From contig CADAUZ010000033.1 in assembly GCA_902791215.1 (NCBI GenBank), positions 1-32,580 of the forward strand: a DNA stretch of 32,580 bases. Reading direction: 5' to 3'. The translations under genes were made by a program, and so were the position numbers. The DNA is from Oscillospiraceae bacterium (GTDB lineage: Bacteria; Bacillota; Clostridia; Oscillospirales; Oscillospiraceae). The notes under the pieces are model-generated. The model was given only the letters and a program-made list of their open reading frames with translations, was not told the DNA's origin and searched no databases. Of this stretch, positions 3,582 to 26,857 are shown piece by piece (position 1 is the stretch's first letter; every line of letters begins with the position of its first letter).

Positions 3582-4973
3582 TCAGATTAAATTTGTATAG
3601 CCCATGAGAAAGCGGTCGACCTCGGCGGCGCAGGCGCGGCCCTCCGCAATGGCGTGGACCACCAGGGACTGGCCGCGGTGCATATCACCGGCTGTGAAGA
3701 TGTGCGGGACGCTGGTCCGGAAGGAACCCGCCTCGGTTTTCACCGTGCGGTCAAGCTCCACACCGAAGGCGGCGCACACATCCTCCCGGCACCCGGCAAA
3801 GCCTGTCGCCGCGATGAGCAGCTCACAGGGAAGCTTTGTTCCGTCCTTCGTAACGGCAGCCGTGAGATTGCCCGCGTCATCGGTTTCAAGCGAAGCTACA
3901 CTCTGCGAGAAGAGACGCGGGTCACTGCCGAAAACGGCGTCAGCTTCTTCTTGCGCGTAGTCCTGCGGGAGGCTGCCGTCCGGCGTGAGATAATCCTCTT
4001 TCGCTCGGCGCACAAGCTGTACAAGACTTTTGCAGCCTTGGCGAAGGGAAGTTGCAGCGCAGTCGCTCGCGGTGTTGCCGGTGCCGATGATGACCACGTT
4101 TTTCCCCTCAGCGGAGGGGACGGCGGGGGTGAGGGAGAGTTGCTGACGCTCCACTGCGGCGGGCAGAAAGTCCATGGCAAAGCACACGCCCCGGACACCC
4201 CCCGCGTCGATGCCGAGCGGGCGCGGCTTCTCCGCCCCGCAGCATAAAACCACCGCGTCGTATTCCATCGTCAGCCGCTGGGCTACCGCGGGATCGGCGG
4301 CGTCGAGCTCGGTCACAAAGCTCACGCCCTCGCGCGTCATGAGATCAATCCGGCGGCGGACGATAGATTTCGGCAGCTTCATATTTGGGATGCCGTACAT
4401 CAATAGCCCGCCGGGCAACGCACGCTTTTCGATCACCGTGACACTGTGGCCCCGGTGGTTGAGCTGATCGGCCACCGCAAGCCCCGCCGGGCCGGAGCCC
4501 ACCACCGCAACATTCTTTCCAGAGCTGTGGGGCGAAAAGCGCGGCTCCATCAGATGATGGGAAAAGGCGTATTCAATGATGCTCAGCTCATTGTCATGTA
4601 CCGTGACGGAATCGCCATACAGCCCGCAGGTGCAGGCCTGCTCACAGAAGGCGGGGCAGACACGGCCTGTAAACTCCGGGAAGTTATTTGTTTTCAAAAG
4701 CCTTGACAGCGCGTGGGCGAAGTTACCGTCCATGATGCTGTCGTTCCACTCGGGGATCAGGTTGTGCAGCGGACAGCCGAGCTGTTTCCCCTCAAACTGT
4801 ACCCCGGCCTGGCAGAAGGGCACGCCGCAGTTCATGCACCTTGCGCCCTGCTCGCGCCGCTGCTCTTCCGAACGGGGAAGATGAAATTCCTCCCAGTCCT
4901 TTACCCGCTCAAGGGGCGGACGCACAGGATTCGCCCTGCGCTCAAATTCCAAAAATCCGGTCGGTTTTCCCAT
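3582..4973 (-). CDS. gltD: Glutamate synthase (NADPH) small subunit
   Basis: A 463-residue protein. It passes electrons from NADPH through FAD and two 4Fe-4S clusters to the large subunit, supporting glutamine + 2-oxoglutarate to two glutamates. N-terminal cysteines (RCMNCGVPFCQ, GCPLHN, GRVCPAFCEQACTCGL) are the cluster ligands. VVGSGPAGLAVADQL is the FAD Rossmann motif, IIGTGNTASDCAATSLRQG the NADPH motif, and FTAGDMHRGQSLVVHAIAEG the C-terminal FAD contact. I chose the ATG at 4973 (MGKPTGF, the usual start of the family), 8 bases after GAGGAGG; an in-frame GTG three codons upstream is too close to that site. It starts 13 bases after gltB, as expected for a two-subunit enzyme. Confidence 0.95.
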   Translation of the reverse strand: MGKPTGFLEFERRANPVRPPLERVKDWEEFHLPRSEEQRREQGARCMNCGVPFCQAGVQFEGKQLGCPLHNLIPEWNDSIMDGNFAHALSRLLKTNNFPEFTGRVCPAFCEQACTCGLYGDSVTVHDNELSIIEYAFSHHLMEPRFSPHSSGKNVAVVGSGPAGLAVADQLNHRGHSVTVIEKRALPGGLLMYGIPNMKLPKSIVRRRIDLMTREGVSFVTELDAADPAVAQRLTMEYDAVVLCCGAEKPRPLGIDAGGVRGVCFAMDFLPAAVERQQLSLTPAVPSAEGKNVVIIGTGNTASDCAATSLRQGCKSLVQLVRRAKEDYLTPDGSLPQDYAQEEADAVFGSDPRLFSQSVASLETDDAGNLTAAVTKDGTKLPCELLIAATGFAGCREDVCAAFGVELDRTVKTEAGSFRTSVPHIFTAGDMHRGQSLVVHAIAEGRACAAEVDRFLMGYTNLI

Positions 4974-4986
4974 ATCGTCCACCTCC

Positions 4987-11793
<6,807 letters not shown>

Positions 11794-11812
11794 GCGCGCA
11801 CCTCCTTTCAAT

Positions 11813-11953
11813 TCAACTGCGAAACAAGGTTTCGCAGTTGAGATACTCGCGCTTATCGCCCTCCGCTTGCGGGGGACGCTTCGGTTGGTCGGCGCGAGGG
11901 CTCGCATGGCTCGCCTTAAGGTGTGTTTACCGTGGCGAAGCTACGGTAAACAC
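11813..11953. repeat. Palindromic island between glnA and the ANTAR gene
   Basis: Three inverted repeats fill this spacer. TCAACTGCGAAAC (11813-11825) pairs perfectly with 11829-11841 around 3 bases. CTCGCGC (11846-11852) pairs with 11892-11898 around a smaller GC-rich hairpin. GTGTTTACCGT (11923-11933) pairs perfectly with 11943-11953. None is followed by a T-run on the minus strand, so they are not ordinary terminators. The innermost one lies about 10 bases before the AAAGGAGG of the ANTAR gene. They could stabilise or process the glnA message, or be a mobile palindromic element; I cannot tell which. Confidence 0.7.
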
Positions 11954-11969
11954 AGTTTGAATCAGCATC

Positions 11970-13181
11970 TTATCTTTCGCAGTATGCGGCGATGATCGCT
12001 TCGGGGACTGTGCGGGTGACAAAGTCACTGTGAAGGGCCAGGGTATTCGCTTCCTTGAGCGAGGTGGGCAGGCGTTCAAAGCCGCGCAGGATTTCCTCCG
12101 GCGCCGTAAAGAGGTTGAGATCGGCGCTAGGCGGCAGGGGAAGTCCCGCTTCAATGCCGTCAAGACCCGCGTGGATCAGCAGGGCAAAGGCCAGGTAGGG
12201 GTTCACCCCGGGATCGGCAGAGCGCAGCTCGGCACGTTTACCAAGACCCGGCGCCGCAGGGATGCGGATGAGCTGGGAGCGGTTTTCACTCGACCAGGAG
12301 ATATAACCCGGCGCTTTCCGGCTGCCGAGGCGCAGATAGGAGTTATCCGTCGGGTTGAGAAAGGCGGTGATCTCCCGGATGCGCGCCATGATGCCCGCAA
12401 TCACCTGCGGGAGAAGGTCGCGCCCGTCACGGCTCTCCACGGAGATGTTGATGTGCATGCCGTTTCCTGCCTGATCCGGAAGCGGCTTGGGGGAGAAGTC
12501 CGCGGTAAGACCGTTTCGCGCGACGATTGCCTCCACCACGGCGCGGAAGGTCAGGGCGTTGTCGGCGGCGGTCAGCGGATCGGAGTAACGGAAGTCGATC
12601 TCGTTCTGCCCCGGGCCCTCCTCATGGTGGGAACACTCCGGCTGAATCCCCATCTGGCTGAGCGTCAGGCAAATCTCACGCCGCACATTCTCACCCTTGT
12701 CCATGGGGGCAATATCCATATAGCCCGCCCGGTCAAAGGGGATCTTTGTGGGCTCTCCGTCCTCGTCGGTCTTGAATAGATAAAACTCCATCTCCGTACC
12801 GAAGGCAAAGGAGATCCCGCGCTTTGCCGCACGCTCCACGGCTTTTCTGAGCAGGGCACGGGAATCCGTTTCGAGGGTCGTCCCGTCCGGGTGGGCGACG
12901 CCGCAGAACATGCGCACTACCTTGCCGTTTTCACCTCGCCAGGGCAGGGAGGCGAGTGTGGCGGGATCGGGATGCAGGAAGAGATCGGAGCGCACCTCTC
13001 CTCCGAAACCGGCAATGGCGGAGGCGTCTATGGCGATGCCGTGCCGAAAGGCGCGATCCAGCTCTGTCGGCAGAATGGCGATGTTTTTCTGCTTCCCGAA
13101 AACATCACAGAAGGCCAGGCGGATGAAGCGCACATCCTCCTGTTCCACATATTGGCGTACTTCCTGTTCGGTAAAGTCCAT
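11970..13181 (-). CDS. glnA: Glutamine synthetase, type I, short form
   Basis: A 403-residue protein making glutamine from glutamate, ammonia and ATP. Family motifs present are FGTEMEFYLF (metal Glu), HHEEGPGQNEIDFRY, GNGMHINIS (metal and substrate His), RLGSRKAPGYISWSSENRS and ELRSADPGVNPYLAFALL. Typical type I enzymes have about 440 residues. This one stops soon after SDFVTRTVPEAIIAAYCER, so the usual last 35-40 residues (the EW..Y...V..WE..Y tail) are missing. I see no adenylylation-type tyrosine loop. It has its own promoter at 13220-13248 and reads away from glnN. The ANTAR regulator follows in the same direction. Catalytic residues look complete, so activity is likely, but a role as nitrogen sensor for its neighbour is possible. 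Confidence 0.92.
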   Translation of the reverse strand: MDFTEQEVRQYVEQEDVRFIRLAFCDVFGKQKNIAILPTELDRAFRHGIAIDASAIAGFGGEVRSDLFLHPDPATLASLPWRGENGKVVRMFCGVAHPDGTTLETDSRALLRKAVERAAKRGISFAFGTEMEFYLFKTDEDGEPTKIPFDRAGYMDIAPMDKGENVRREICLTLSQMGIQPECSHHEEGPGQNEIDFRYSDPLTAADNALTFRAVVEAIVARNGLTADFSPKPLPDQAGNGMHINISVESRDGRDLLPQVIAGIMARIREITAFLNPTDNSYLRLGSRKAPGYISWSSENRSQLIRIPAAPGLGKRAELRSADPGVNPYLAFALLIHAGLDGIEAGLPLPPSADLNLFTAPEEILRGFERLPTSLKEANTLALHSDFVTRTVPEAIIAAYCER

Positions 13182-13219
13182 GATAAAAACCCCTTTCCCG
13201 ATTCGTTCAACATGCTGAA

Positions 13220-13248
13220 AGATAACATCCGGGAGATTCCTTTGTCAA
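13220..13248 (-). promoter_or_regulatory. glnA promoter
   Basis: TTGACA (13248-13243) and TTATCT (13225-13220) are spaced by 17 bases on the minus strand. The leader to the ATG at 13181 is short, about 30 bases, and I found neither a terminator nor a hexaloop hairpin in it, unlike the pyrG and glnN leaders. Confidence 0.75.
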
Positions 13249-13277
13249 TGCAAATCGGTGAAAAATTTTGAAGGAAC

Positions 13278-13306
13278 TTGACAATTGCCCCAATCAGGTC
13301 TATACT
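13278..13306 (+). promoter_or_regulatory. glnN promoter
   Basis: TTGACA (13278-13283) and TATACT (13301-13306) are separated by 17 bases. Transcription should start near 13312, a few bases before the hexaloop hairpin. The glnA promoter on the other strand lies 30 bases away, so a single regulator bound here could touch both. Confidence 0.85.
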
Positions 13307-13317
13307 CGCGAGCGTCT

Positions 13318-13335
13318 TGAGACAACGACGTCTCA
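13318..13335 (+). promoter_or_regulatory. ANTAR-type hexaloop hairpin in glnN leader
   Basis: TGAGAC-AACGAC-GTCTCA is a perfect 6-bp stem closing a six-base loop with A1 and G4. It starts about 6 bases into the transcript. Its 5' arm and loop are the same bases that form the 5' arm of the terminator at 13319-13368, so protein-stabilised folding here should block termination. The following GGGC-TAAGT-GCCC hairpin (13338-13350) is the candidate second element but lacks the A1/G4 loop. Confidence 0.7.
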
Positions 13336-13376
13336 GAGGGCTAAGTGCCCCCTGTACGTCGTTGTCTCTTTTTTTT
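13319..13376 (+). terminator. Leader terminator (attenuator) of glnN
   Basis: GAGACAACGACGT (13319-13331) pairs perfectly over 13 bp with ACGTCGTTGTCTC (13356-13368) and is followed by eight T residues (13369-13376). It lies between the promoter and the start codon at 13408, so full-length transcription needs antitermination. It cannot coexist with the hairpin at 13318-13335. Confidence 0.92.
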
Positions 13377-13407
13377 ATTTGTTTTCAAATTTGAAAGGGT
13401 GAAGCAT

Positions 13408-15501
13408 ATGAAATCCGTTCCGGAAACATTCGGCAGTCTTGTATTTGACGACCGCACTATGAAGGCCCGCCTCTCCGGCGAGGTCTACCATGCCATGAAG
13501 CAGACCATGAAGAAGGGCCAGCCCCTTGACCCCAAGGTGGCAAACGCCGTTGCGACCAGCATGCGTGACTGGGCCGTTGAGCATGGCGCGACACACTTTA
13601 CCCACTGGTTCCAGCCCCTCACCGGCGTCACGGCGGAGAAGCACGACGGCTTTATCTCCCCGGCCCCCGACGGCGGCGTCATCATGGAGTTTTCCGGCAA
13701 AGAGCTCATCCGCGGAGAACCGGACGCCAGTTCTTTCCCATCCGGCGGCCTGCGCGCGACCTTTGAGGCGAGGGGATATACCGCCTGGGATCCCACCTCT
13801 TACGCCTTCATCAAGGGAAAGGTGCTCTGCATCCCGACGGCTTTCTGCTCCTACGGCGGCGAAGCGCTGGATAAAAAGACCCCACTGCTGCGCTCTATGG
13901 AAGCGCTGAACCGCGAGGCGCTGCGTATCCTGCGGCTTTTCGGTAATTCCGACGTCACCCATGTGACCTGCTCGGTCGGACCGGAGCAGGAATACTTCCT
14001 TGTGGACCGCGAGCTTTACAAAAAGCGCCGCGACCTCATCTATACCGGGCGGACGCTCTTTGGTGCCAAGCCACCCAAGGGCCAGGAGCTGGACGACCAC
14101 TACTTCGGCGTCATCAAGCCGCGGGTGCAGGCCTATATGGAGGAACTGAACGAGGAGCTCTGGAAGCTCGGCATCCTCGCCAAGACCGAGCACAACGAGG
14201 TCGCCCCCTGCCAGCATGAGCTTGCGCCCATCTACTCCACCACAAACATCGCAACCGACCACAACCAGCTCACCATGGAGGTCATGCAGAAGGTGGCCGA
14301 GAAGCACGGCCTGATGTGCCTGCTGCATGAAAAGCCCTTTGCGGGCGTCAATGGTTCCGGCAAGCACAACAACTGGTCCATCGCCACCGACACGGGTGTG
14401 AACCTCCTGTCTCCCGGCGAATCCCCTTACGAAAACGCGCAGTTTTTACTGTTTCTGATCGCGGTCATCGAGGCCGTGGACGAGTACGCCGATCTCCTGC
14501 GGGCAAGCGTCGCCACTGCCGGCAATGACCACCGCCTGGGGGCCAACGAAGCGCCTCCTGCCGTGGTATCCATCTTCCTGGGCGATGAGCTGACGGCGGT
14601 GCTGGACGCGCTTGAGAAAGAGCAGCCCTACACCGGAACTACAAGGCCCGAAATGATGCTGGGCGTGCTGACCCTGCCGCGCTTCCTGCGCGATACCACC
14701 GACCGCAACCGTACCTCTCCATTCGCCTTCACTGGCAACAAGTTTGAATTTCGTATGGTGGGCTCCTCCAACTCCATCGCCTGCGCCAACATCATGCTCA
14801 ACTCCGCTGTGGCGGACACGCTGCGGCGGTTTGCCGATGAACTTGAAGCAAGCACGGACTTTGACGCAACACTCCATGCCCTGCTGATCGGGAGCCTGAA
14901 GGCCCACAAGCGCATCCTCTTCAACGGCAACGGATATGACGATGCCTGGATCGAGGAGGCAACGCAGGTGCGCGGCCTGCACAATCTGCGCACCACGCCG
15001 GACGCCATGAAAGCTCTGCTCGAGCCGAAGAACATGGAGATGCTGCTGCGGCAAAAGGTCTATTCTGAAACAGAGCTGCGCTCCCGCTATGAGATCATGC
15101 TGGAAAACTACTGCAAGACCATCGTCATCGAGGCCAACACCATGGCGGAGATGACGCGCAAGGAGATCCTGCCCGCCGTGACGAAGTACTGTGCCGCCGT
15201 GGCGGAGGGCGCGGGCAAGAAGCGCGCGCTTGTGCCGACGCTGCCCTGTGCGTACGAAACGGGCCTTGTGGAAAAGCTCTCGGTACTGTCAGATCAGATT
15301 GAAAAGAGCGTGGAGGCACTGGAGGGTACGCTCGTGAAGCTCTCTACGGTTTCGGAGATCACCGCGCTTTCCGAGACGATCCGGGATAAGCTGCTTCCGA
15401 AGATGGCAGAGCTCCGCGCTGTGGCGGATGAGGCGGAGGTCATGACGGCGAAGGAATACTGGCCTTTCCCGACTTACGGCGAAATTCTTTTCGCCATGTA
15501 A
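13408..15501 (+). CDS. glnN: Glutamine synthetase, type III
   Basis: A 697-residue protein, normal for the GlnN/type III family, which makes glutamine as large dodecamers. Motifs include [22 protein letters not shown] with the following [44 protein letters not shown] and [15 protein letters not shown], all characteristic of type III rather than type I. I start it at ATG 13408, after GAAAGGGTG; an in-frame upstream start would lie inside the leader terminator. It is the first gene of the rightward nitrogen operon and is divergent from the short type I glnA. It is controlled by the attenuator at 13318-13376. A repetitive palindrome follows its stop, before glmS. Confidence 0.95.
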
Positions 15502-15505
15502 AGAC

Positions 15506-15587
15506 TTGTCATTCTGAGCAAAGCGAAGAATCTGATTCTTTATCAACAATCGAAGAAAAGATCCTTCGCTTACGCTCAGGATGACAA
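15506..15587. repeat. REP/MITE-like inverted repeat
   Basis: The left arm, starting TTGTCATTCTGAGC (15506-15533), is the inverse of the right arm, ending GCTCAGGATGACAA (15559-15587), with a few differences and one indel around a 25-base AT-rich centre. This TCATTCTGAGC-AAGCGAAG-type sequence is, from memory, a widespread bacterial intergenic repeat. It fills most of the glnN-glmS gap. No T-run follows, so it is not a clear terminator. Confidence 0.7.
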
Positions 15588-15613
15588 CAAAAAACCGACA
15601 AAGGAGAAACATC

Positions 15614-17437
15614 ATGTGTGGGATCGTTGGATTTACCGGAGCGCGCGCCGCGGCGCCGGTACTGCTTGGGGGATTGGAAAGGCTCGAATACCGGGGCTAT
15701 GACTCGGCCGGGATCGCGGTACTCCATGACGCGGCGATTCAGGTGGAGAAGGTCAGCGGACGCATTGCCAAACTGCGCGAGAAAACAGAAGATGGCGCGC
15801 GTGTTCCGGGCTCCGCCGGGATCGGGCACACCCGCTGGGCGACCCACGGCGCGCCGACGGATCAGAATGCTCACCCGCATTTGTCGAATGACGGACGCTT
15901 TGCCGTGGTTCACAACGGCATCATCGAAAACTATCTGGAGCTTCGCAGGGAACTCATCCGGGATGGCTATGTCTTTCAGAGCGAAACGGACACAGAGACC
16001 ATCGTCCACCTCTTGGAGCTTTACTATGACGGAGACATCAAGGCTGCTGTCATGAAGACCGCCGCGCGGCTGGAGGGCTCCTATGCCCTCGGCATCGTCT
16101 GCACCGACACACCGGACGCCCTCTACGTCGTGCGGGAGGCAAGCCCGCTGATCCTCGGCGTCGGCGTGGGGGAGAACTACTTTGCCTCGGACGTGACAGC
16201 GCTGGTGTCCCATACGAAAAATGTGATCTACCTGGAGGACGGCGAGTTTGCAAAGCTCACGCCGGACAGCATCACGGTCTGCGACTGTGCCGGGCGCGAG
16301 ATCAAAAAGCCCATCAGCCGCGTGACCTGGAGCGTGGAGGCGGCGGAAAAGGGCGGGTATGAGCACTTCATGCTCAAGGAGATCATGGAGCAGCCCGCCG
16401 CAGTCAAGGCCGCCCTTGCACCGCGGATCCATGAAGGCCGCGTACAGCTCGACGGTTTTGAGCTGAGCGCGGAAGAACTCAGGGGCATCACCAAGATTAT
16501 CATCACCGCCTGCGGCTCAGCCTACTATGCGGGCTGTTCGGGCCGCTATGCGCTCGAACGGCTCTGCCGTGTCCCGGTACAGGTGGAGCTTGCCAGTGAG
16601 CTGCGCTATTCCGACCCCATGGTGGATGAGCACACGCTGGTGCTGGTGATCTCTCAGTCCGGTGAGACGGCGGACACCATCGCCGCTCTCAAGGAATGCA
16701 AGGCGCGCGGGGCGAAGGTGATCGGCATTGTAAACGTGGTTGGCAGCACGATCGCAAAGCTTGCAGATTTCACGCTCTACACCTTCGCCGGACCGGAGAT
16801 CGCCGTCGCCACCACCAAGGGTTACACCACGCAGCTCACTGTTCTGTATCTCTTCGCCCTGTACATGGCCGAAAAGCTCGGGCGCATTGATGCGGAGAGC
16901 TACACCGCCCTGGTGAAGGAGCTTCAGCATCTGCCGCGAAAGCTGCAGCAGACCATCGACATGAACTGGCAGATCCCGAAGCTTGCAAGCCGTTACGCAA
17001 GCCACTCGCTCTTCTTCATCGGCCGCAATACGGACTACGCTGTAGCGCTGGAGGGCGCGCTCAAAATGAAGGAGATCTCCTACCTTCATGCCGAATCCTA
17101 CGCGGCCGGAGAGCTCAAGCACGGCACCATCGCCCTCATCGAGGAAAACCAGCCGGTCATCGCCGTCTGCTGCAACGAAGCGCTCCTGGATAAGACGCTA
17201 TCAAATATCGTGGAGGTCAAGGCCCGCGGGGCAAAGGTACTGGCGCTGTCATATATGGGCAATAAAAAAATCGTCTCCCAGGCGGACGACGTGATTTTTA
17301 TTCCGCGCGTGGAGACGGTGTTCTCGGCAGTGCTCGCGGTCGTGCCGCTGCAGTTGCTTGCCTATTATGCTGCCAAAGAAAAGGGCTGTGATATCGACAA
17401 GCCCAAGAATCTGGCAAAATCCGTGACAGTGGAGTGA
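15614..17437 (+). CDS. glmS: Glutamine-fructose-6-phosphate aminotransferase
   Basis: A 607-residue protein making glucosamine-6-phosphate for cell-wall precursors. The N-terminal Ntn amidotransferase begins MCGIVGFTG, with Cys2 exposed after Met removal, and has [11 protein letters not shown] and HNGIIENY. Two SIS sugar isomerase domains follow ([42 protein letters not shown]). It ends in [10 protein letters not shown], the conserved tail that reaches the active site. I start it at ATG 15614, after AAGGAG, because a Met-Cys start is required; an ATG 11 codons upstream would block the nucleophile. It follows glnN after the REP-like repeat. The 112-base gap has no room for, or sign of, a glmS ribozyme. 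guaA starts 5 bases after its stop. Confidence 0.96.
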
Positions 17438-17442
17438 GGACC

Positions 17443-18978
17443 ATGCAGGAAAAAATCCTTGTTCTGGATTTCGGCGGTCAGTATAACCTCCTGATCGCCC
17501 GACGGATCCGGCAGCAGCATGTCTATGCCGAAGTGAAGTCTTATAACAGCATTACCACAGAACAGATACAGAGGGAAGGCTACAAGGGCATCGTCTTTAC
17601 CGGCGGGCCGAACAGTGTCTATGATCCGGCCTCGCCGCACTTCGACCCCGGAATCCTCAGACTCGGTATCCCGATCCTCGGCATCTGCTATGGTCATCAA
17701 CTTCTGGCATGGATGGCGGGCGGCGAGATTCAGGCCGCCGAGAACGCCAGTGAGTACGGCCGGGTAGCGCTTGAGCATTCCGGTGGCGTCCTGTTTGAAG
17801 AGGTTCCGCCGGAAAGTGTCTGCTGGATGAGTCACACAGATTTTGTGAGCGCTGTCCCGGTTGGCTTCCAAATTACCGCCTCTACGGAAAACTGCCTCTG
17901 TGCGGCCATGGCGGATGATGAGCGAAGGCTCTACGGCGTGCAGTTTCACCCGGAGGTCACACATACCGTCTTTGGAAACCAGATCCTGTACAATTTCCTG
18001 TTCAAGGTCTGCGCCTGCCGGGGAGACTGGACAATGGAGGATTTTGTCTCCGCATCCATAGAGAGATACCGTCAGGAATTGTCCGGCAAGAATGCTCTGT
18101 GCGCCCTGTCCGGCGGGGTGGACTCCGCCGTGACGGCGGTGCTGCTGCATCGGGCCATCGGGGATCGCCTGACCTGCGTTTTCGTGGATCACGGCCTGCT
18201 GCGCAAAGAAGAGCGGGAGCAGGTGGTCAGGGTGTTTCGACACCGATTTCAGATGAAGCTGATCGTTGTTGACGCACAGGAGCGTTTTCTCGCAAGACTC
18301 AAGGGCGTCACGGAGCCGGAACGGAAAAGAAAAACTATCGGCGAGGAGTTTATACGCGTCTTCGAGGAAGAAGCAAAGCAACTCGGAAAGCAGGACGTGT
18401 TGGTGCAGGGTACCATTTACCCTGACGTGGTGGAATCCGGCGCGGGCAGCGCGGCTGTGATCAAGAGCCACCACAATGTAGGGGGCCTGCCGGAGAAGAT
18501 TGGTTTTGAGCGCATTGTCGAGCCCCTGCGGGAGCTTTTTAAGGATGAGGTCCGCGCTGTGGGACTGGAGCTTGGTATCCCGGAAGAACTGGTCATGCGC
18601 CAGCCGTTTCCGGGACCGGGCCTCGCCATCCGCGTGATGGGCGAGATCACGGAGGAAAAGCTCACGGTGCTCCGAGAGGCGGACGCCATTTTCCGGGAGG
18701 AGATCATGAGGGCCGGGCTTACGGATGCGCCGAGCCAGTATTTCGCCGTGCTGACGGATAACCGCAGCGTCGGTGTCATGGGTGACGCCCGTACCTATGG
18801 CTGGGTCATTGCCTTGCGTGCGGTGTCCACTGACGATTTCATGACTGCTGACTGGTCGCGCCTGCCGTGGGAGCTCATGGAAAGGGCTTCGTCCCGCATT
18901 ACAAATGAAGTCCGTTCTGTCAGCCGCGTGGTCTATGACATCACGTCCAAACCGCCCGCAACGGTGGAGTGGGAATAA
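17443..18978 (+). CDS. guaA: GMP synthase (glutamine-hydrolysing)
   Basis: A 511-residue protein converting XMP to GMP with glutamine nitrogen. The class I amidotransferase domain has nucleophile Cys82 ([10 protein letters not shown]) and the His169/Glu171 pair ([10 protein letters not shown]). The ATP pyrophosphatase P-loop is [13 protein letters not shown] (residues 221-233). The C-terminal dimer domain has [18 protein letters not shown] and ends [18 protein letters not shown] chose the ATG at 17443, with GGAG 8 bases upstream inside the end of glmS. A GTG three codons earlier overlaps the glmS stop and is less likely. It is tightly linked to glmS; a weak terminator-like hairpin follows. 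Confidence 0.96.
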
Positions 18979-18980
18979 AA

Positions 18981-19019
18981 AAAGACAGCCGCCACCCTGG
19001 AAAAGTCACGGCTGCCTTT
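18981..19019 (+). terminator. Weak terminator-like hairpin after guaA
   Basis: AAAGACAGCCG (18981-18991) pairs with CGGCTGCCTTT (19009-19019) with one mismatch and a 17-base loop. The T-tract is short (TTTAT), so it may only reduce readthrough into amt. I see no clear promoter between it and amt. Confidence 0.5.
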
Positions 19020-19030
19020 ATAGAGGTAAT

Positions 19031-19096
19031 GGAGGGCAAAAGCACTCATCACCGCCCTCCACTTTAACAAAGAAATACGAAGAAGTCAAGGAGGGC
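19031..19096 (+). promoter_or_regulatory. Candidate translational switch before amt
   Basis: GGAGGGC occurs twice, at 19031-19037 and at 19090-19096; the second copy is the ribosome-binding site of amt (ATG 19102). Between them lies GCCCTCC (19054-19060), which is perfectly complementary to both. Pairing with the first copy (16-base loop) leaves the ribosome-binding site free; pairing with the second (29-base loop) hides it. The geometry is seen directly; that it works as a switch is inference. Confidence 0.55.
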
Positions 19097-19101
19097 TTTC
19101 T

Positions 19102-20826
19102 ATGTCTGTTGAGTTTTGGTATCTGATAGGCGCGGCACTGGTTTTCTGGATGCAGGCGGGCTTTGCAATGGTCGAGACAGGATTTACCCGTGCAAAGAAC
19201 GCGGGAAACATCATCATGAAAAACCTGATGGATTTCTGCATCGGCACCGTGGTGTTCTCCCTGCTGGGATATACGCTGATGATGGGGGAGGACTGCTTCT
19301 TCGGTCTCATCGGCAAACCGAATCTGCAGCTGTTCACGCACTATAAGGAGTTCATTGCCTCTCCGGCAGAGGGCTTCACCGGCGCAAGCACTTTCGTGTT
19401 TAACCTTGTGTTCTGCGCCACGACCGCGACGATCGTCTCCGGCGCAATGGCAGAGCGCACGAAGTTTTCCGCGTACTGTATCTATTCCGGCATTATCAGC
19501 CTTGTGGTATACCCCATCGAGGCGCACTGGATCTGGGGCGGCGGCTGGCTCAGCAAGCTCGGCTTTCACGATTACGCGGGCTCCTGCGCGATCCATATGG
19601 TGGGCGGCATCGCAGCCTTGATCGGCGCCATCCTGCTGGGCGCGAGAATCGGAAAATATGTGAAGGGCCCGGACGGCAAGGTCGTCAAGATCAACGCCAT
19701 TCCCGGCCACTCGATCCCGCTCGGAGCCCTGGGCGTGTTTATCCTCTGGCTCGGCTGGTACGGGTTCAACGGTGCGGCGGCGACTTCTCCCTCGGAGCTC
19801 TCGTCCATCTTCCTCACGACGACCATCGCCCCGGCTGTCGCTACCTGCACCACCATGATCTACACCTGGAAGAAGAACGGGAAACCGGATGTGTCCATGT
19901 GCCTCAATGCCTCTCTCGCGGGCCTTGTTGCCATTACGGCGGGCTGTGACGCGATGGATGCCGTGGGTGCAATCGTCGTGGGCATTGTTTCGGGCATTCT
20001 GGTCGTTGTGGTTGTGGAAGCTCTGGATCTGAAGCTGCATGTCGATGATCCTGTCGGCGCTGTGGGTGTCCATATGGCAAACGGCATGTGGGGTACGCTT
20101 GCAGTCGGCCTGCTCGCAAATCCCGATGCTCCTGCCGGATTGAAGGGCCTTTTCTATACCGGCTCTTTTACACAGCTCGGCATCCAGACGCTGGGACTTA
20201 TGACAGTCGCTGTTTATACGACGGTATTGCTGTTTATTACCTTCAGACTCATTGAAAAGACAAACGGCCTGCGCGCCGATCCTGCGGATGAACTGATCGG
20301 CCTGGACGTGAGTGAACATGGTTTGCCCAGCGCTTATGCGGACTTCGTGCCTGCTGTGAGCAAATACGCGGAGTATGGCGTGACCGGCACGGACAGCGTC
20401 GTAACCGGGACTGTTCCTCCGGCAGAGGCCATTCCGGTCAGGCGTGAGACCGCTTTGCGCCCGGACGGCCACAAGTTTACCAAGGTAGAAATCGTCTTCA
20501 AGGAAGAAAAGCTCTATGCCCTCAAGGATGCCATGAGCAGGCTCGGCATCACCGGCATGACAGTTTCGCACGTCATGGGCTACGGCATCCAGAAGGGGCA
20601 GGTAGAATATTATCGCGGTGTCGCAGTGGAAACCGACCTGCGGCCCAAGGTGCAGGTGGATATTGTGGTCAGCGCCATCCCGGTGCGGGATGTGATCGAA
20701 ACCGCCAAGAAGGTGCTGTACACCGGCCATATCGGTGACGGCAAGATCTTTATCTACGATGTGGAGAACGTCGTGAAGGTGCGCACCGGTGAAGAAGGAT
20801 ATGACGCCCTGCAGGATGTGGAATAA
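19102..20826 (+). CDS. amt: Ammonium transporter fused to a PII signalling domain
   Basis: A 574-residue membrane protein. Residues 1 to about 400 are an Amt channel: GFAMVETGFTRAKNAGNI (20-37), HWIWGGGWL (142-150), and the twin pore histidines His165 (SCAIHMVGG) and His324 (AVGVHMANGMWG). After a linker of about 50 residues, residues 456-574 form a full PII/GlnK domain: KFTKVEIVF, the T-loop GYGIQKGQVEYYRGV with Tyr504 at the usual uridylylation position, and the C-loop TGHIGDGKIFIYDVENVVKV. PII proteins bind ATP/ADP and 2-oxoglutarate and close Amt channels, so here gate and sensor are one chain. AAGGAGGG precedes the ATG; a candidate RNA switch covers this site. It sits in the glutamine-using operon between guaA and asnB. 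Confidence 0.95.
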   Translation: MSVEFWYLIGAALVFWMQAGFAMVETGFTRAKNAGNIIMKNLMDFCIGTVVFSLLGYTLMMGEDCFFGLIGKPNLQLFTHYKEFIASPAEGFTGASTFVFNLVFCATTATIVSGAMAERTKFSAYCIYSGIISLVVYPIEAHWIWGGGWLSKLGFHDYAGSCAIHMVGGIAALIGAILLGARIGKYVKGPDGKVVKINAIPGHSIPLGALGVFILWLGWYGFNGAAATSPSELSSIFLTTTIAPAVATCTTMIYTWKKNGKPDVSMCLNASLAGLVAITAGCDAMDAVGAIVVGIVSGILVVVVVEALDLKLHVDDPVGAVGVHMANGMWGTLAVGLLANPDAPAGLKGLFYTGSFTQLGIQTLGLMTVAVYTTVLLFITFRLIEKTNGLRADPADELIGLDVSEHGLPSAYADFVPAVSKYAEYGVTGTDSVVTGTVPPAEAIPVRRETALRPDGHKFTKVEIVFKEEKLYALKDAMSRLGITGMTVSHVMGYGIQKGQVEYYRGVAVETDLRPKVQVDIVVSAIPVRDVIETAKKVLYTGHIGDGKIFIYDVENVVKVRTGEEGYDALQDVE

Positions 20827-20870
20827 GGATTTCCTGCGCGCGTATCAATACAACAGATAGGAGAATCATC

Positions 20871-22454
20871 ATGTGTTCGATTATGGGCTTCACGTCCGGT
20901 ACATTGACGCCGGAGCAATTCTTGCCGTTTTTTAAGCGCACGGTCTCCCGCGGCCCGGATATGAGCCGCGTGGAGCAGGCCGGGGAGGGCTATCTCTGCT
21001 TCCATCGCCTCGCCATCATGGGCCTGCATGAGGAAGGGATGCAGCCCTTTCATCTCAAGGGAGATATGTGCGTCTGCAACGGCGAGCTGTACCTCTTCCG
21101 GCCGCTCAAAAAGGAGCTGGAGGATGAGGGCTGTGTCTTTCAGAGCGATTCCGACTGCGAGATCATCCTGCCGCTTTACCACAGGTACGGGGTTGAGATG
21201 TTCAAAAAGCTGGACGCGGAGTTTGCCATGATCCTCTATGATGCCGAAACGGACAGCTTCATCGCCGCCCGCGACCCGATCGGTATTCGCCCGCTGTTTT
21301 ATGGAGAGCTCTCCGACGGCAGCATGGTCTTTGCGAGTGAGGCCAAGAACCTGGTGGGGCTCTGCGCCGAGATCAAACCCTTCCCTCCGGGACACTACTG
21401 GAAGGATGGAGAATTTGTCCGCTATGCCGACCTCACCACGGTCGATTCCTATATCGACGGGGATCTGGACGAGATCTGCGCGGGGATCCGCGAAAAGCTG
21501 ATACTCGGTGTAGATAAGCGCCTGGATGCGGATGCGCCCCTGGGCTTTCTGCTCTCCGGCGGTCTGGATTCGAGCCTTGTGTGTGCCATCTCCGCCAAGA
21601 TTCTCGGCAAACATGTGCGTACCTTTGCCATCGGCATGGATGTGGATGCCATCGACCTCAAGTACGCCCGCACAGCGGCGGACTTCATCGGGGCTGAGCA
21701 CACGGAAGTGTACATGACCCGGCAGCAGGTGCTGGATTCTCTGGAGGAGGTCATCGCCGCTCTCGGCACCTGGGACATCACCACGATCCGCGCCAGCATG
21801 GGCATGTACCTCTGCTGCAAAGCGATACACGAACAGACAGATGTACGCGTCCTGCTGACCGGGGAGATCAGCGACGAACTCTTCGGCTACAAGTACACAG
21901 ACTTTGCGCCGAGCCCTGAGGAATTCCAGCGGGAGGCGAAGAAACGCATTGATGAAATCTACATGTACGACGTGCTGCGCGCCGACCGCTGCATTTCGGT
22001 AAACTCTCTGGAAGCCCGCGTCCCCTTCGGTGACCTGGAGTTTGTAAAATATGTCATGTCCATCGACCCCAAACTCAAGATGAACCGCTACAACATGGGA
22101 AAATATCTGCTGCGCCACGCGTTTGAAAAGGATCATCTGCTGCCCGACGAGATCCTGTGGCGCCAGAAGGCGGCCTTCTCCGACGCGGTGGGCCACTCGA
22201 TGGTCGACGATCTGAAGGCCTACGCCGAGAATCTGTACACCGACGAGGAATTTGAACGGAAACGGATGGTCTATGACTATGGCCGTCCCTTCACCAAGGA
22301 GAGCTTGCTGTACCGTGAAATCTTCGAGAAATACTACCCCGGTCAGGCGGAAATGATCGCGGACTTCTGGATGCCGAACAAGAGCTGGCCGGGCTGCGAT
22401 GTGAACGATCCCTCCGCCCGTGTCCTTGCAAACTACGGCGCAAGCGGAACCTGA
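20871..22454 (+). CDS. asnB: Asparagine synthase (glutamine-hydrolysing)
   Basis: A 527-residue protein making asparagine from aspartate, ATP and glutamine. It starts MCSIMGF, so Cys2 is the Ntn amidotransferase nucleophile; RGPD, FHRLAIMG and CNGELYL are the glutaminase contacts. The synthetase half has the ATP P-loop LSGGLDSSLVCAIS (228-241), LTGEISDELFGYKY, and LEARVPFGDLEFVKYVM. The length matches the AsnB type. TAGGAG precedes the ATG. It begins 44 bases after amt and is followed 22 bases later by nadE, consistent with a single operon. Confidence 0.94.
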   Translation: MCSIMGFTSGTLTPEQFLPFFKRTVSRGPDMSRVEQAGEGYLCFHRLAIMGLHEEGMQPFHLKGDMCVCNGELYLFRPLKKELEDEGCVFQSDSDCEIILPLYHRYGVEMFKKLDAEFAMILYDAETDSFIAARDPIGIRPLFYGELSDGSMVFASEAKNLVGLCAEIKPFPPGHYWKDGEFVRYADLTTVDSYIDGDLDEICAGIREKLILGVDKRLDADAPLGFLLSGGLDSSLVCAISAKILGKHVRTFAIGMDVDAIDLKYARTAADFIGAEHTEVYMTRQQVLDSLEEVIAALGTWDITTIRASMGMYLCCKAIHEQTDVRVLLTGEISDELFGYKYTDFAPSPEEFQREAKKRIDEIYMYDVLRADRCISVNSLEARVPFGDLEFVKYVMSIDPKLKMNRYNMGKYLLRHAFEKDHLLPDEILWRQKAAFSDAVGHSMVDDLKAYAENLYTDEEFERKRMVYDYGRPFTKESLLYREIFEKYYPGQAEMIADFWMPNKSWPGCDVNDPSARVLANYGASGT

Positions 22455-22476
22455 GCGGGAATGGAGATGCTGAAAC

Positions 22477-23211
22477 ATGAGACATGATTGGAAAGCTGAG
22501 TATGAAAAACGTGTAGCCTGGATTCGTGTGCTCCTTGCACGCAGCGGTGCAAAAGGAATTGTCTACGGAAATTCCGGCGGCAAAGACAGTGCTCTGACGG
22601 GTATTCTCTGCAAAGGGGCCTGTCAGGATACTGTGGGATTGATCATGCCCTGCGCCTCAAAACGCAACTTCGGCCAGGACACAGAGGATGGTCTTGTCGT
22701 AGCAAAGCAGTATGGCATCGAAACACGCACAATAGATCTGACTTCCGTTCGGGAACAGGAGGTAAAAGCTCTGGGAACGGCAACTTCTCTGACAGAACTT
22801 GCCCTTGCAAATATCGCGCCCAGGCTTCGCATGACGACACTCTATGCAGTGGCGGCATCAGAAAATCGTATTGTCGCCGGCACAGGCAATCGCAGCGAAG
22901 CATACATGGGTTATTTCACAAAATGGGGAGACGGCGCATATGACTTTAATCCGATCGGGGATCTGACAGTCACAGAGATTTTTGCGTTTCTTACATATCT
23001 GGGAGCTCCGCAGCAAATCATCGACAAGGCTCCGTCAGCCGGACTGTTTGACGGTCAGACCGATGAAGCGGAAATGGGCATCAGTTACCGGGTGATCGAC
23101 CAGTATCTGCTGAAAGGTCAGGCGGATAAAAGTGAGCTTGCAACCATGCGCCGCTTCCACGAGCGGAGCGAACATAAACGCCAGGCGATCCCAATTTATA
23201 AGGGAGAATAA
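22477..23211 (+). CDS. nadE: NAD synthetase, ammonia-dependent
   Basis: A 244-residue protein converting nicotinate adenine dinucleotide to NAD. The PP-loop is GNSGGKDSALTG (SGGKDS at 33-38), followed by VAGTGNRSEAYMGYFTKWGDG and DFNPIGDLTVTEIFAF, typical of NadE. There is no N-terminal nitrilase domain, so the enzyme should use free ammonia and not glutamine, and it sits next to an ammonium transporter and other ammonia users. The sequence is somewhat less GC-rich than its neighbours. One base separates its stop from the purB start. Confidence 0.92.
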   Translation: MRHDWKAEYEKRVAWIRVLLARSGAKGIVYGNSGGKDSALTGILCKGACQDTVGLIMPCASKRNFGQDTEDGLVVAKQYGIETRTIDLTSVREQEVKALGTATSLTELALANIAPRLRMTTLYAVAASENRIVAGTGNRSEAYMGYFTKWGDGAYDFNPIGDLTVTEIFAFLTYLGAPQQIIDKAPSAGLFDGQTDEAEMGISYRVIDQYLLKGQADKSELATMRRFHERSEHKRQAIPIYKGE

Positions 23212-23212
23212 C

Positions 23213-24646
23213 ATGTACGACAGTTATCAAAACCCGCTTTGTACCCGCTATGCCGGGAAAGACATGCAGCGGATCTTCTCCGATCAGCAAAAGTTTTCCA
23301 CATGGCGAAGGCTCTGGCTCGCTCTGGCAGAGAGTGAGCAGGCCCTTGGCCTGCCCATCACAGACGCGCAGCTTGACGAGATGCGCCTTCATCTGGACGA
23401 CATTGACTATGACCTCGCGGCTCGGAAGGAAAAGGAGCTCCGCCATGACGTGATGGCGCATGTGCACACCTTTGCCGCTGTCTGCCCGACGGCCGCGCCG
23501 ATCATCCATCTGGGCGCCACCTCCTGCTATGTGGGAGACAATACGGACGTTCTCAATCAGCGCAACGCGCTGCTGCTCATTCGCCGCAAGCTTCTGTCCG
23601 TCATGCGGACGCTTGCAGACTTCGCAGGAAAAAACAGGGATCTCCCGACCCTTGCCTTTACCCACTTTCAGGCAGCCCAGCCCACGACTGTAGGAAAACG
23701 CGCCTGCCTCTGGCTTCAGGATCTGGAGATGGATCTCAAACAGCTGGATTTTGCTTTATCCCAACTGCGGCTTCTGGGCTGCAAGGGCACGACCGGAACG
23801 GCGGCGAGCTTTCTGAAGCTCTTCGATGGGGACGAAGAAAAGGTGCTGGGGCTTGAGCGCATGATCGCGGCGAAGATGGGCTTTACCGCCTGCCAGCAGA
23901 TAAGCGGGCAGACCTATTCCCGCAAGCAGGATTTCGCCGTGTTGCAGGTTCTCAGCGGCATTGCCCAGAGCGCCTGCAAATTTGCCGGGGATATCCGGCT
24001 GCTGAGTCATCTCAGGGAGCTGGAGGAGCCCTTTGAAAGCGGACAGATCGGCTCGTCTGCCATGGCCTATAAGCGAAACCCCATGCGCAGTGAACGCATT
24101 GCGGCACTGGCGCGCTATGTGATGTGCGACCTTCAAAACGCGGCTTTCACGGCGTCCTCCCAGTGGCTGGAACGCTCGCTGGATGATTCCGCCAACCGCC
24201 GCATCGCCATCCCGGAAGCGTTTCTTGCCTGTGACGGGATCTTGAATCTGTATGAAAATATCGTCTCCGGCCTGCGCCTGTTCCCGGCGGTGATGCAAAA
24301 ACATCTCCGGGAGGAGCTGCCGTTTCTCGCCACTGAGAATATCCTGATGGTCTGTGTGAAGGAGAAGAACGGAGACAGACAACTCCTTCATGAACGCCTT
24401 CGCGTCCACGCGGTCGCCGCGGCGGAACAGGTCAAGGTATATGGCAGGGACAATGATCTGCTACAGCGGATCGCAGAGGATCCGGCATTCGGCCTGACAG
24501 CGGAAGAACTGGAGGAGCTTGCGGAGCCGTCGGCCTTTACCGGTATGGCGGGATCACAGTGCACGCGTTATCTCCATGATGTGATCAAACCGATACTGGA
24601 ACAAAATCGGGCAAACATTCAGAAAGCAGACAAGATCAATGTGTGA
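23213..24646 (+). CDS. purB: Adenylosuccinate lyase
   Basis: A 477-residue protein releasing fumarate from adenylosuccinate and from SAICAR in purine synthesis. The signature loop is SSAMAYKRNP (281-290). HDVMAHVHTF carries the catalytic His, and GATSCYVGDNTD and GTTGTAASF are family contacts. I start it at ATG 23213, 6 bases after AGGGAG; upstream in-frame codons overlap nadE. purA follows after 12 bases. Placing both AMP-branch enzymes here ties aspartate-derived nitrogen to the same operon. Confidence 0.95.
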   Translation: MYDSYQNPLCTRYAGKDMQRIFSDQQKFSTWRRLWLALAESEQALGLPITDAQLDEMRLHLDDIDYDLAARKEKELRHDVMAHVHTFAAVCPTAAPIIHLGATSCYVGDNTDVLNQRNALLLIRRKLLSVMRTLADFAGKNRDLPTLAFTHFQAAQPTTVGKRACLWLQDLEMDLKQLDFALSQLRLLGCKGTTGTAASFLKLFDGDEEKVLGLERMIAAKMGFTACQQISGQTYSRKQDFAVLQVLSGIAQSACKFAGDIRLLSHLRELEEPFESGQIGSSAMAYKRNPMRSERIAALARYVMCDLQNAAFTASSQWLERSLDDSANRRIAIPEAFLACDGILNLYENIVSGLRLFPAVMQKHLREELPFLATENILMVCVKEKNGDRQLLHERLRVHAVAAAEQVKVYGRDNDLLQRIAEDPAFGLTAEELEELAEPSAFTGMAGSQCTRYLHDVIKPILEQNRANIQKADKINV

Positions 24647-24658
24647 GAGGAGAAAAAC

Positions 24659-25933
24659 ATGCTGACATCTGTAGTAGGAACAAACTGGGGCGATGAGGGA
24701 AAGGGCCGTATGGTCGACATGCTCAGCGAGGTGTATGATGTCGTTGTGCGCTATCAGGGCGGCAACAACGCCGGGCACACGGTTGTGAATGAATACGGAA
24801 AGACGGTGCTGAATCTGCTGCCCTCCGGCATCATGCGGAAGAATACCGCAAATATCCTCGGCCCCGGCATGGTCGTTGACCTTGAACACCTCTCCAAGGA
24901 GACCGACGCGCTTCGGAGGCGCGGTGTTCCGATCGGCCCGGAGAATCTGATCCTCAGCTCCCGTGCGACGATCTGCCTGCCTTATCATCGGCTGCTGGAC
25001 ATATTGGAAGAGGAACGCCTCGGCAGCAAAAGCTTTGGCTCCACCCGGCGGGGGATTTCGCCGGTGTATGCGGACAAGTATATGAAAAAAACCCTCCGCA
25101 TGGGCGACCTGCTCTATCCAAATACACTTAGGAAAAAGATTGAGGATCTTCTGGAATGGAAGAACCTCACCATCGAGAACGGCTATGGGCATGACCCAAT
25201 CAAAAGCGATGAGATCATGGAGTGGCTCATTGCCTACGGAAAGCCTTTTGTGTCATATGTCCAGGATACCGGGCTCTATCTGCAAAACGCAATAGCCAGA
25301 GGAAAATCTGTCCTGTTTGAAGCGCAGCTCGGCGCTCTGCGGGATATAGACTTCGGCATCTATCCCTTTACCTCCGCATCCTCAACGCTCGCAGCCTATG
25401 CCCCCATCGGCGCGGGGGTACCCTTTGCGCGTCTGGATCAGGTGATCGGGATCATGAAAGCGTATTCCAGCTGTGTCGGCGCAGGCCCCTTTCCCTGTGA
25501 GCTTTTCGGGGAAGAGGGGAGTGCATTGCGAGAAGCCGGAGCAGAATACGGCGCCGCCACCGGCAGACCGCGCAGAGTCGGCGGTTTCGACGTTGTCGCA
25601 TCCCGCTACGGAACCAGGATGCAGGGATGCACCGCTCTTGCACTGACGAAGCTGGACGTGCTGTCCTATATGGAAAAAATCCCGGTCTGCGTTGCCTACG
25701 ATGTGAGAGGCGAGCGCGTTGAGGACTTTCCCACGGTGATCGATGACCTGAATGCAGCAAAACCGATTTATGAATATCTGCCCGGTTTTCACTGTGATAT
25801 CAGAACCTGCCGCCATCTTGAAGATCTGCCGCAGGCAGCACGGAATTATATTGCCTTTGTAGAATCCGCCGTGGGCTGCCCGATCCGCTATGTATCCGTC
25901 GGCGCAGAGAGGGACGCAATTATTGTCACGTGA
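24659..25933 (+). CDS. purA: Adenylosuccinate synthetase
   Basis: A 424-residue protein that joins IMP and aspartate using GTP, the first step to AMP. The P-loop GDEGKG is at 11-16 and the IMP/Mg loop NNAGHT at 36-41. STRRGISPVYADK and the substrate loop TGRPRRVGGFD are typical, and LTKLDVLS is the guanine-recognition motif. GAGAGGAG precedes the ATG. It is the last gene of the rightward nitrogen operon. The 75-bp palindrome at 25989-26063 lies about 55 bases after its stop and probably ends transcription. Confidence 0.95.
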   Translation: MLTSVVGTNWGDEGKGRMVDMLSEVYDVVVRYQGGNNAGHTVVNEYGKTVLNLLPSGIMRKNTANILGPGMVVDLEHLSKETDALRRRGVPIGPENLILSSRATICLPYHRLLDILEEERLGSKSFGSTRRGISPVYADKYMKKTLRMGDLLYPNTLRKKIEDLLEWKNLTIENGYGHDPIKSDEIMEWLIAYGKPFVSYVQDTGLYLQNAIARGKSVLFEAQLGALRDIDFGIYPFTSASSTLAAYAPIGAGVPFARLDQVIGIMKAYSSCVGAGPFPCELFGEEGSALREAGAEYGAATGRPRRVGGFDVVASRYGTRMQGCTALALTKLDVLSYMEKIPVCVAYDVRGERVEDFPTVIDDLNAAKPIYEYLPGFHCDIRTCRHLEDLPQAARNYIAFVESAVGCPIRYVSVGAERDAIIVT

Positions 25934-25942
25934 TGTCAGAGA

Positions 25943-26857
25943 TTATTTTGAGTAGTTATAGATAACAAATATAAGTAAGTAAACAAATAACGCCCGCCGA
26001 CTGCTTAACTTTTTCAGAGCAGCCAGCGGGCGTAAATTATGTGAAGACGCGGACAACGACACTTGTCTAACTACGATTGAATTTACCCGGTCAAGGATGA
26101 TCCCGCGATCTCTCTGAGCATAATAGGAAAGCATAGGCTGAAGCACATCGCGTATCTCAGAGCGGCTGAACTTACGAATACGCAGCTGCGATCCATACAA
26201 TTTTCGCGCAGAAAGAATCTGACGATTAAAGGTCGTGTTGAATGGCCTGGCCCTGACAGATGAGATTAAGGCTTTGGGTGCAATGTCCATTGGCGAGATC
26301 TGCGTGTTCGACAAAAGCGCAGCGCCGTTATCAAAGATCGGACAATAATCAAAACACCCATCCTGCTCCAGAACCGCAATGTTGTTGAGATGCCGGTCGT
26401 CATTAAGAAACAACGCATCGACTTCAAAAAGCAATGCCAGGTACCTGGGAAAATCCCTGAGGCCGGTCAGATCCGCGGTCGTCTCTGCAAGGTATGATAC
26501 CCGTCGAATATCGCTGGGAAGCCGGGTCAGCGCTGCTTTCAGGTCAATGTTGTTTTTGCGAAACAGCCTGCTCAGCGTGATGATAGACTGTCCGGGCCGC
26601 AAAAAGTTTTCGCTGGAGCAGCCGGTCCTGTCCCGCCCGTGCACATTCATCCGCTCCATCCGGTAATGCGTGAAGTGAAAGGAAGTGTCTGTCTCAATAT
26701 TGCTCTGCTCCAGAAAACACGAAACGGCAGATTCCGCCAAAGCCTCATACCCGAACTGATCCAGCTTGTACCAGCGGTTTCCGTCTTTCCATTTCTCCTG
26801 ATTGCCCTTTGAGGATGTTTCAGCGATTTTCTCGTCTGTTACAAAGTGAATGTTCAT
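25943..26857 (-). CDS. Compact HipA-like kinase (putative toxin)
   Basis: A 304-residue protein. NDDRHLNNIAVL (152-163) and IFDNGAALL (174-182) are the catalytic loop and metal motif of the HipA/PI3K-like kinase fold. The usual HipA N-terminal subdomain is missing; instead the first 100 residues contain VHGRDRTGCSSENFL and are not assigned to a known domain. The ATG overlaps the stop of the upstream gene as ATGA, so translation is coupled. Residues about 265-290 are encoded by the 75-bp palindromic repeat, followed by a hydrophobic tail, so the natural C-terminus has probably been replaced. HipA kinases phosphorylate tRNA synthetases or related targets and cause growth arrest; the target here is unknown. 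Confidence 0.7.
   Translation of the reverse strand: MNIHFVTDEKIAETSSKGNQEKWKDGNRWYKLDQFGYEALAESAVSCFLEQSNIETDTSFHFTHYRMERMNVHGRDRTGCSSENFLRPGQSIITLSRLFRKNNIDLKAALTRLPSDIRRVSYLAETTADLTGLRDFPRYLALLFEVDALFLNDDRHLNNIAVLEQDGCFDYCPIFDNGAALLSNTQISPMDIAPKALISSVRARPFNTTFNRQILSARKLYGSQLRIRKFSRSEIRDVLQPMLSYYAQRDRGIILDRVNSIVVRQVSLSASSHNLRPLAALKKLSSRRALFVYLLIFVIYNYSK
25989..26063. repeat. 75-bp palindromic repeat, copy 2
   Basis: The second copy of the element at 903-977, in the same orientation. The hairpin arm starting CGCCCGCCGACTG begins at 25991 and pairs with AGCAGCCAGCGGGCG (26018-26032) around an AT-rich loop, then continues GTAAATTATG. As in copy 1, it lies between convergent genes, here purA and the HipA-like gene, and overlaps the coding end of the latter. 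Confidence 0.75.

Follow-up and report, generated by a model that had tools for sequence, protein, structure and literature searches.

Single-hexaloop hairpins overlapping terminators in the glnN and pyrG leaders: candidate sites of ANTAR antitermination in Clostridia

The window analysed here, meaning the whole 32,580-nt stretch of contig CADAUZ010000033.1 (assembly GCA_902791215.1), comes from an Oscillospiraceae bacterium related to rumen species and carries, in front of glnN on the plus strand and of pyrG on the minus strand, two leaders in which a short hairpin with a six-base loop (hexaloop) overlaps an intrinsic terminator directly behind a σA promoter (Table 1). Between these two attenuated transcription units lie, on the minus strand, the genes for a glutamine synthetase (GS)-like protein, GlnA*, and for an ANTAR protein. 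The sequence-only reading of this DNA had noted a leader design shared on opposite strands on either side of the regulator gene, and this arrangement holds; its description of the two controlled genes as unrelated does not. pyrG, which overlaps a gltB-like open reading frame (ORF) followed by a gltD-like ORF, leads a pyrG-gltB-gltD run, and glnN leads a run of glutamine and ammonia genes, with which it possibly forms an operon, so that both leaders serve glutamine/glutamate supply. A promoter scan of positions 11000–26100 gave ten sites, against 6.0 in shuffles, and the three that agree at 10 or more of the 12 positions are those of glnN, glnA* and pyrG. The window has no Rfam match above gathering score, and a known Rfam riboswitch or attenuator was rejected on that ground.

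In the glnN leader, the hairpin, the overlapping 13-bp terminator and its eight T residues lie where the earlier reading had placed them. The loop, AACGAC, begins with A and has G as its fourth base (A1 and G4), and the 5′ arm of the terminator reuses the 5′ arm and the loop of the hairpin plus two bases further. RNA folding predicts the terminator as the minimum free energy structure of the leader (−35.2 kcal/mol, z −8.4, equalled by none of 200 shuffles), and the first 29 nt of the RNA alone are predicted to form the hexaloop hairpin (−10.8 kcal/mol, z −2.1, equalled by 5 of 200 shuffles). Transcription usually starts about 7 nt past the −10 element, and the hexaloop hairpin would thus be the first structure in the glnN RNA, about 5 nt in from this predicted start, consistent with the earlier estimate of about 6 bases. 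The pyrG hairpin, 8 nt past its −10 element, has the loop AAAGAC, again with A1 and G4.

Table 1. Coordinates of the leaders and genes in the window, with the basis of each assignment
Feature	Position	Strand	Details	Basis
glnN σA promoter	13278..13306	+	−35 TTGACA 13278-13283; −10 TATACT 13301-13306; spacer 17 nt	11/12 consensus bases in promoter scan
glnN hexaloop hairpin, proposed ANTAR site and antiterminator	13318..13335	+	TGAGAC/AACGAC/GTCTCA	sequence, folding
glnN-leader intrinsic terminator	13319..13376	+	13-bp stem and T8; 5′ arm 13319-13331, GAGACAACGACGT; 3′ arm 13356-13368; T8 13369-13376	sequence, folding
glnN, type III glutamine synthetase	13408..15501	+	GSIII_N, Gln-synt_C, Gln-synt_C-ter	Pfam domains
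pyrG σA promoter	11184..11212	-	TTGACA-17-TATTCT	promoter scan
pyrG hexaloop hairpin (second in window)	11160..11175	-	TGAAC/AAAGAC/GTTCA	sequence, strict detector
pyrG-leader terminator	11123..11170	-	shares hairpin loop and 3′ arm; span 11170-11129, T-rich tail beyond	sequence, folding
pyrG, CTP synthase	9494..11107	-	CTP_synth_N, GATase; heads pyrG-gltB-gltD run	Pfam domains
gltB-like and gltD-like ORFs	3582..9504	-	gltB-like 4987-9504; gltD-like 3582-4982	names from reading translations
ANTAR antiterminator protein	11209..11793	-	pseudo-receiver, 194 aa	Pfam domains; genome's sole ANTAR match
glnA*, GS-I-like protein	11970..13181	-	403 aa	Pfam domains, alignment
Predicted glnA*-ANTAR promoter	13219..13248	-	TTGACA-18-TATCTT	promoter scan
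glmS-like, guaA-like, amt-PII-like, asnB-like, nadE-like, purB-like, purA-like run	15614..25933	+		names from reading translations

The element recurs among relatives. We scanned both strands of the window together with 80 glnN loci that have organism names (the best 80 of 592; 965,684 bases in all) with a strict detector, which asks for the loop AANGRC, a stem of at least 4 pairs and an overlapping terminator. It returned 55 elements, and six control loops gave 2, 0, 1, 7, 2 and 2 (a further loop, AARNGC, with 40 matches, was unusable as a control since it overlaps AAAGGC); within the window it found no third element. By comparison with the window proteins, the genes behind the 55 elements are glnN (24), gltB (9), pyrG (4), amt (3), and guaA, asnB and glnA (1 each), with 12 unassigned; one of the 24 glnN elements is a false site within glnN, and some others of the 55 have no promoter. 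A promoter with 4 mismatches or fewer, its −10 element ending 5–20 nt ahead of the hairpin, precedes 45 of the 55 elements, with a mode of 8 nt, an arrangement found at 7.45% of 2000 random positions. A perfect promoter lies within 75 nt in 17 of the 55, in 15 of them at 5–20 nt.

Thirty-six of the 55 elements were aligned (alignment A1), the rows being selected for an AANGRC loop and for having a stem. Across these rows, given that selection, A at loop positions 1 and 2, G at position 4 and C at position 6 are invariant. Four of the five stem pairs vary on both sides, and 94.4% of cells pair. Four of five covariation measures exceed every shuffle, a count inflated by the selection of rows for a stem. 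In a test free of that selection, 39 of 53 sites have 4 or more base pairs of stem; shuffling the 3′ flanks 1000 times gave 10.3 such sites on average and never more than 20, and the 14 stemless rows include several true elements read one step upstream.

In the bacterium's own genome (3.19 Mb), a search for the loop AANGAC with a complementary 3′ arm and a T-run gave nine rows, against four with the backward control, and these represent eight distinct sites. A flanking stem longer than 2 bp is present only at glnN (7 bp) and pyrG (5 bp), the other six having 0–2 bp, and the same pair is alone in having, 8–10 nt upstream, a promoter with 2 mismatches or fewer; the six stemless sites were set aside as ordinary terminators. 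The two leaders are thereby more than chance finds, and both lie within about 2 kb of the genome's single ANTAR-domain match (PF03861). A covariance model, R1, built from window and named-locus rows, gave expectation values (E) below 0.01 in this genome for the two window leaders only, both of them training rows, with the next match at 0.023, and its scan of this genome found no wider regulon. The genome has a second glnN (G000:C10:24380-26464), 63% identical to that of the window, and no R1 match is listed on its contig.

R1 was then run, blind to ANTAR, on 99 genomes, which include the window's own and near relatives of the training rows. We read the matches listed to E 1e-3 and filtered them by the strict detector and promoter, since R1 takes ordinary terminators at weak scores; scans of more than 40 genomes ran at stricter filters, with weak matches lost. 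PF03861 is present in 47 of the 99 genomes, and the strict element occurs in 27 of these 47 (own genome included) and in 0 of the 52 ANTAR-minus genomes (Fisher 7e-12). The same holds within the genus (10/23 versus 0/38) and in other genera (17/24 versus 0/14). The genes behind 49 strict elements, a tally made on the first-read stretches before 15 more were added, are glnN (17), gltB (11), pyrG (7), amt (5) and asnB (2), with 7 unassigned. Across 291 genomes of the class, where R1 was used alone, without the strict detector, it matched 78 at E 1e-4, and ANTAR is present in 70 of these 78 versus 75 of the 213 R1-negative genomes (Fisher 9e-18). Together, these counts support the regulon that the earlier reading had proposed from two leaders: the element recurs across Clostridia, mostly before glutamine/glutamate genes, and its presence follows that of the ANTAR protein. 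From this co-occurrence and from homology we infer that readthrough would depend on that protein.

Two side observations concern relatives outside this pattern. Some same-genus ANTAR-positive glnN leaders (L016, L018, L021, L022) carry the loop GCCGAC, ACTGAC or GCTGAT at the same position, and these variants are possibly co-evolving with their ANTAR proteins as a recognition code. In six of nine ANTAR-minus relatives read (L023, L025, L026, L027, L028, L040), a different promoter-proximal palindrome, TGAGAGGC-(5–6 nt)-GCCTCTC with a variable loop, lies upstream of glnN and may be a second control of this gene.

We propose, with good confidence, that the glnN and pyrG-gltB leaders are default-off attenuators relieved by the ANTAR protein at a single hexaloop. 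A polymerase leaving either promoter would first make, at the extreme 5′ end of the RNA, a 5–6-bp hairpin with the loop AANGRC. Without ANTAR, the loop and one arm would be recaptured by the stronger terminator and transcription would stop ahead of the gene; ANTAR protein from the adjoining glnA*-ANTAR unit would grip the single hexaloop, hold the hairpin and block the terminator, and the gene would be on. The direction and the signal are taken from NitR of Clostridium saccharobutylicum, an ANTAR protein reported to induce genes of the GS/glutamate synthase (GOGAT) cycle by antitermination on nitrogen limitation (PMC6316151, citing Stutz 2007), and by this analogy activation would come when nitrogen or glutamine is short. 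More speculatively, GlnA* would sense glutamine status and control ANTAR by direct contact.

The leaders could be read in other ways. If the terminators were ordinary and unregulated and did no more than keep basal expression low, the small hairpin would be incidental, as the much greater predicted stability of the glnN terminator might suggest; the excess of the loop over control loops, the stem test, the covariation and the co-occurrence with ANTAR speak against this, and we regard it as very unlikely. The palindrome past the −10 element might also be a DNA operator for a repressor and not an RNA structure: its place 8–10 nt past the −10 element in the window would suit an operator, as would the different palindrome at a similar place in the six ANTAR-minus relatives. 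However, stem pair 8-17 is A-U, G-C and G-U in 12 of the 36 rows each, and the G-U rows break DNA symmetry and keep the RNA stem; furthermore, a terminator overlaps downstream and the presence of the element tracks an RNA-binding protein, which makes an operator highly improbable.

The remaining alternative concerns the number of hexaloops. Known ANTAR targets carry dual-hexaloop motifs with A1 and G4, of which the second hairpin, P2, overlaps the terminator, and ANTAR sites were predicted ahead of glutamate and glutamine synthase genes (Ramesh 2012, PMC3369931). The leaders described here share the overlap with an intrinsic terminator; with the predicted starts, they hold one hairpin and not the pair P1 and P2. 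A standard dual-hexaloop target would require P1 to be part of a longer RNA begun at a promoter further upstream, or to come from a second RNA or leader. Indeed, two hexaloop hairpins stand in tandem before glnN, by reading, in ten relatives (L020, L024, L032, L034, L075, L077, L079, L082, L107, L108), most with their own terminator, which is a possible double gate, and a further A1/G4 hexaloop occurs 20–140 nt downstream of 13 of the 55 elements, against 8.0 at random. Yet the 60 nt upstream, which contain the promoter in 45 of the 55 elements, show no excess of A1/G4 hexaloops (8/55 versus 8.9 at random with stems of at least 3 pairs, 2 versus 3.9 with at least 4), and we give a hidden P1 little credence, if marginally more than the two preceding alternatives. 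The glnN/pyrG element is a single-hexaloop variant and not a canonical dual-hairpin ANTAR target, and its novelty lies in this form, ANTAR antitermination itself being already known.

Several observations weigh against relief by ANTAR at a single hexaloop. EutV needs both hairpins in vivo for antitermination, and single sites are expected where no transcribing-polymerase time limit applies (Walshe 2022, PMC8934654); such a limit does apply to the glnN and pyrG leaders. NasR bound a lone hairpin only at ~12 μM (PMC7496416), so that affinity is the weak point of a single-hexaloop regulon. The short pyrG hairpin alone is predicted to be no stabler than its shuffles (−4.1 kcal/mol, z 0.1, equalled by 90 of 200), and the fifth covariation measure, further pair types, is 8 versus 10.2 in shuffles. 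The detector missed three ANTAR-positive glnN leaders in which variant loops were seen by eye (ACTGAC in L018, GCCGAC in L016, GCTGAT in L022), the latter two without A1. Furthermore, the strict element is lacking in 20 of the 47 ANTAR-positive genomes and an ANTAR match in 8 of the 78 class-wide R1-positive genomes, the relatives being phylogenetically non-independent and many genomes incomplete metagenome-assembled genomes, which makes absences soft.

The ANTAR protein (PF03861, 48.9 bits) has a receiver-coiled-coil-ANTAR architecture, and its predicted model, the only one put to a fold search, gave full-length matches to Rv1626, EutV and AmiR. Its receiver has Asn at the position of the phospho-acceptor Asp; as read from an alignment, Asp stands there in 2 of 43 orthologues, and 41 of the 43 thus have a receiver without the phosphorylation site. 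The glnA* product has the domains of the GS fold (PF00120, PF03951) and matches GS structures in the PDB. In the window protein the metal ligands are kept, the flap reads SRKAP for GYEAP, Gly occupies the position of Arg62, and about 24 C-terminal residues are gone. The numbering and catalytic roles of Arg62, the flap Glu (VPGxEAP) and the other GS residues are those we take to be established for GS.

These changes were followed through 57 of 61 distinct GS-like sequences (four shorter than 340 residues were dropped, and loci L011-L040 left out). A flap Lys for Glu, loss of Arg62 and a short C-terminus occur together in 38 of the 57, all ANTAR-adjacent, adjacency being by selection for the 29 from loci found through an ANTAR search. 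The canonical VPGxEAP flap is kept in nine, six of them not ANTAR-adjacent and three adjacent (G068, G092 and, by coordinates, G082, whose ANTAR match lies about 500 bases downstream of GS on the same strand), and the remaining ten are intermediates, all adjacent, six with a short-flap Glu and four with Gly, Gln, Ala or Leu. A metal ligand is lost in some ANTAR-adjacent proteins (Glu132 to Asn or Ala in G067, G069, G091 and L116; Glu134 to Lys in L066). In the tree, with its root unplaced, a branch (98/95) separates the 48 short-flap proteins from the rest and the flap-Lys proteins form one group (100/99), by which the flap-Lys form has a single origin. Among L011-L040, five flap-Lys rows are labelled non-adjacent (L014, L017, L018, L022, L033); four of these stretches end before the ANTAR gene, and in one (G024) the two genes are on separate contigs. 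A count blind to ANTAR found a GS-like protein 52–100% identical to that of the window in 39 of the 99 genomes, all among the 47 with ANTAR.

The flap-Lys proteins are 396–408 residues long (n = 38), and such conserved reading frames are evidence against simple decay. Together, the sequences suggest that GlnA* is a GS turned into a sensor, and this pseudoenzyme may be the glutamine-sensing partner of ANTAR, although it could instead be a GS-like ligase with another substrate, as the retention of metal ligands in most members would allow. That graded loss of the active site produced a dedicated GS-derived glutamine sensor, which with a kinase-independent ANTAR protein would run a class-wide single-hexaloop regulon on genuine glutamine/glutamate supply genes, is a tentative proposal that we hold slightly more apt to fail than to stand.

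Compared with the target RNAs of EutV, AmiR and NasR, the present elements share the A1/G4 hexaloop, its closing C-G pair, the overlap with the 5′ arm of the terminator, the nitrogen genes downstream and an ANTAR protein in the genome; unlike them, they have one hexaloop in place of two, at the predicted 5′ end of the RNA directly past the promoter, and loop conservation extends beyond A1/G4 to AANGRC. AmiC-AmiR offers a further likeness, an ANTAR protein under a separately encoded partner, and its structure (1qo0) is matched by the window ANTAR model. The folds of AmiC and NasS differ from that of GS. NasS-NasT likewise places an ANTAR protein under a separately encoded partner (PMC3795266); in contrast to both systems, the partner proposed here has a GS fold, and such a GS-derived partner would be unexpected. 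Compared with NitR, one regulated enzyme here is the type III GS (glnN), and the GS-I homologue adjoining ANTAR lacks the flap Glu and the C-terminus. In C. thermocellum, Clo1313_2030-2038 bring together under neighbouring locus tags an ANTAR gene with GOGAT genes and with GS of types I and III (PMC4676874, PMC9888227), the same gene set as in the window, and the accessible portions of these two papers do not mention the leader motif.

The minimal ANTAR site has been redefined as one hexaloop, with single-hexaloop motifs said to need bioinformatic and experimental work (Walshe 2022, PMC8934654). The glnN and pyrG leaders and their relatives would be natural, recurring candidates for antitermination at this type of site, flagged by Walshe et al. 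2022, and as such challenge an obligatory P1. If the proposal is true, numerous Clostridia, among them many from gut or rumen samples, would sense glutamine through a pseudoenzyme descended from GS, whose target would be an RNA-binding protein without a phosphorylation site. Our literature search, with supplements outside and subscription papers mostly outside its reach, found neither a paper describing antiterminators with one hexaloop ahead of glnN or gltB nor one in which ANTAR is paired with a GS pseudoenzyme.

Two further inverted repeats lie in the window. A perfect one at 11814-11840, CAACTGCGAAA-CAAGG-TTTCGCAGTTG, sits between the ANTAR gene and glnA* and might serve for processing or attenuation within the glnA*-ANTAR unit. 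The other, CATTCTGAGCAAAGCGAAGAATC ... CTTCGCTTACGCTCAGGATGACA, lies at 15510-15590, between glnN and the glmS-like gene.
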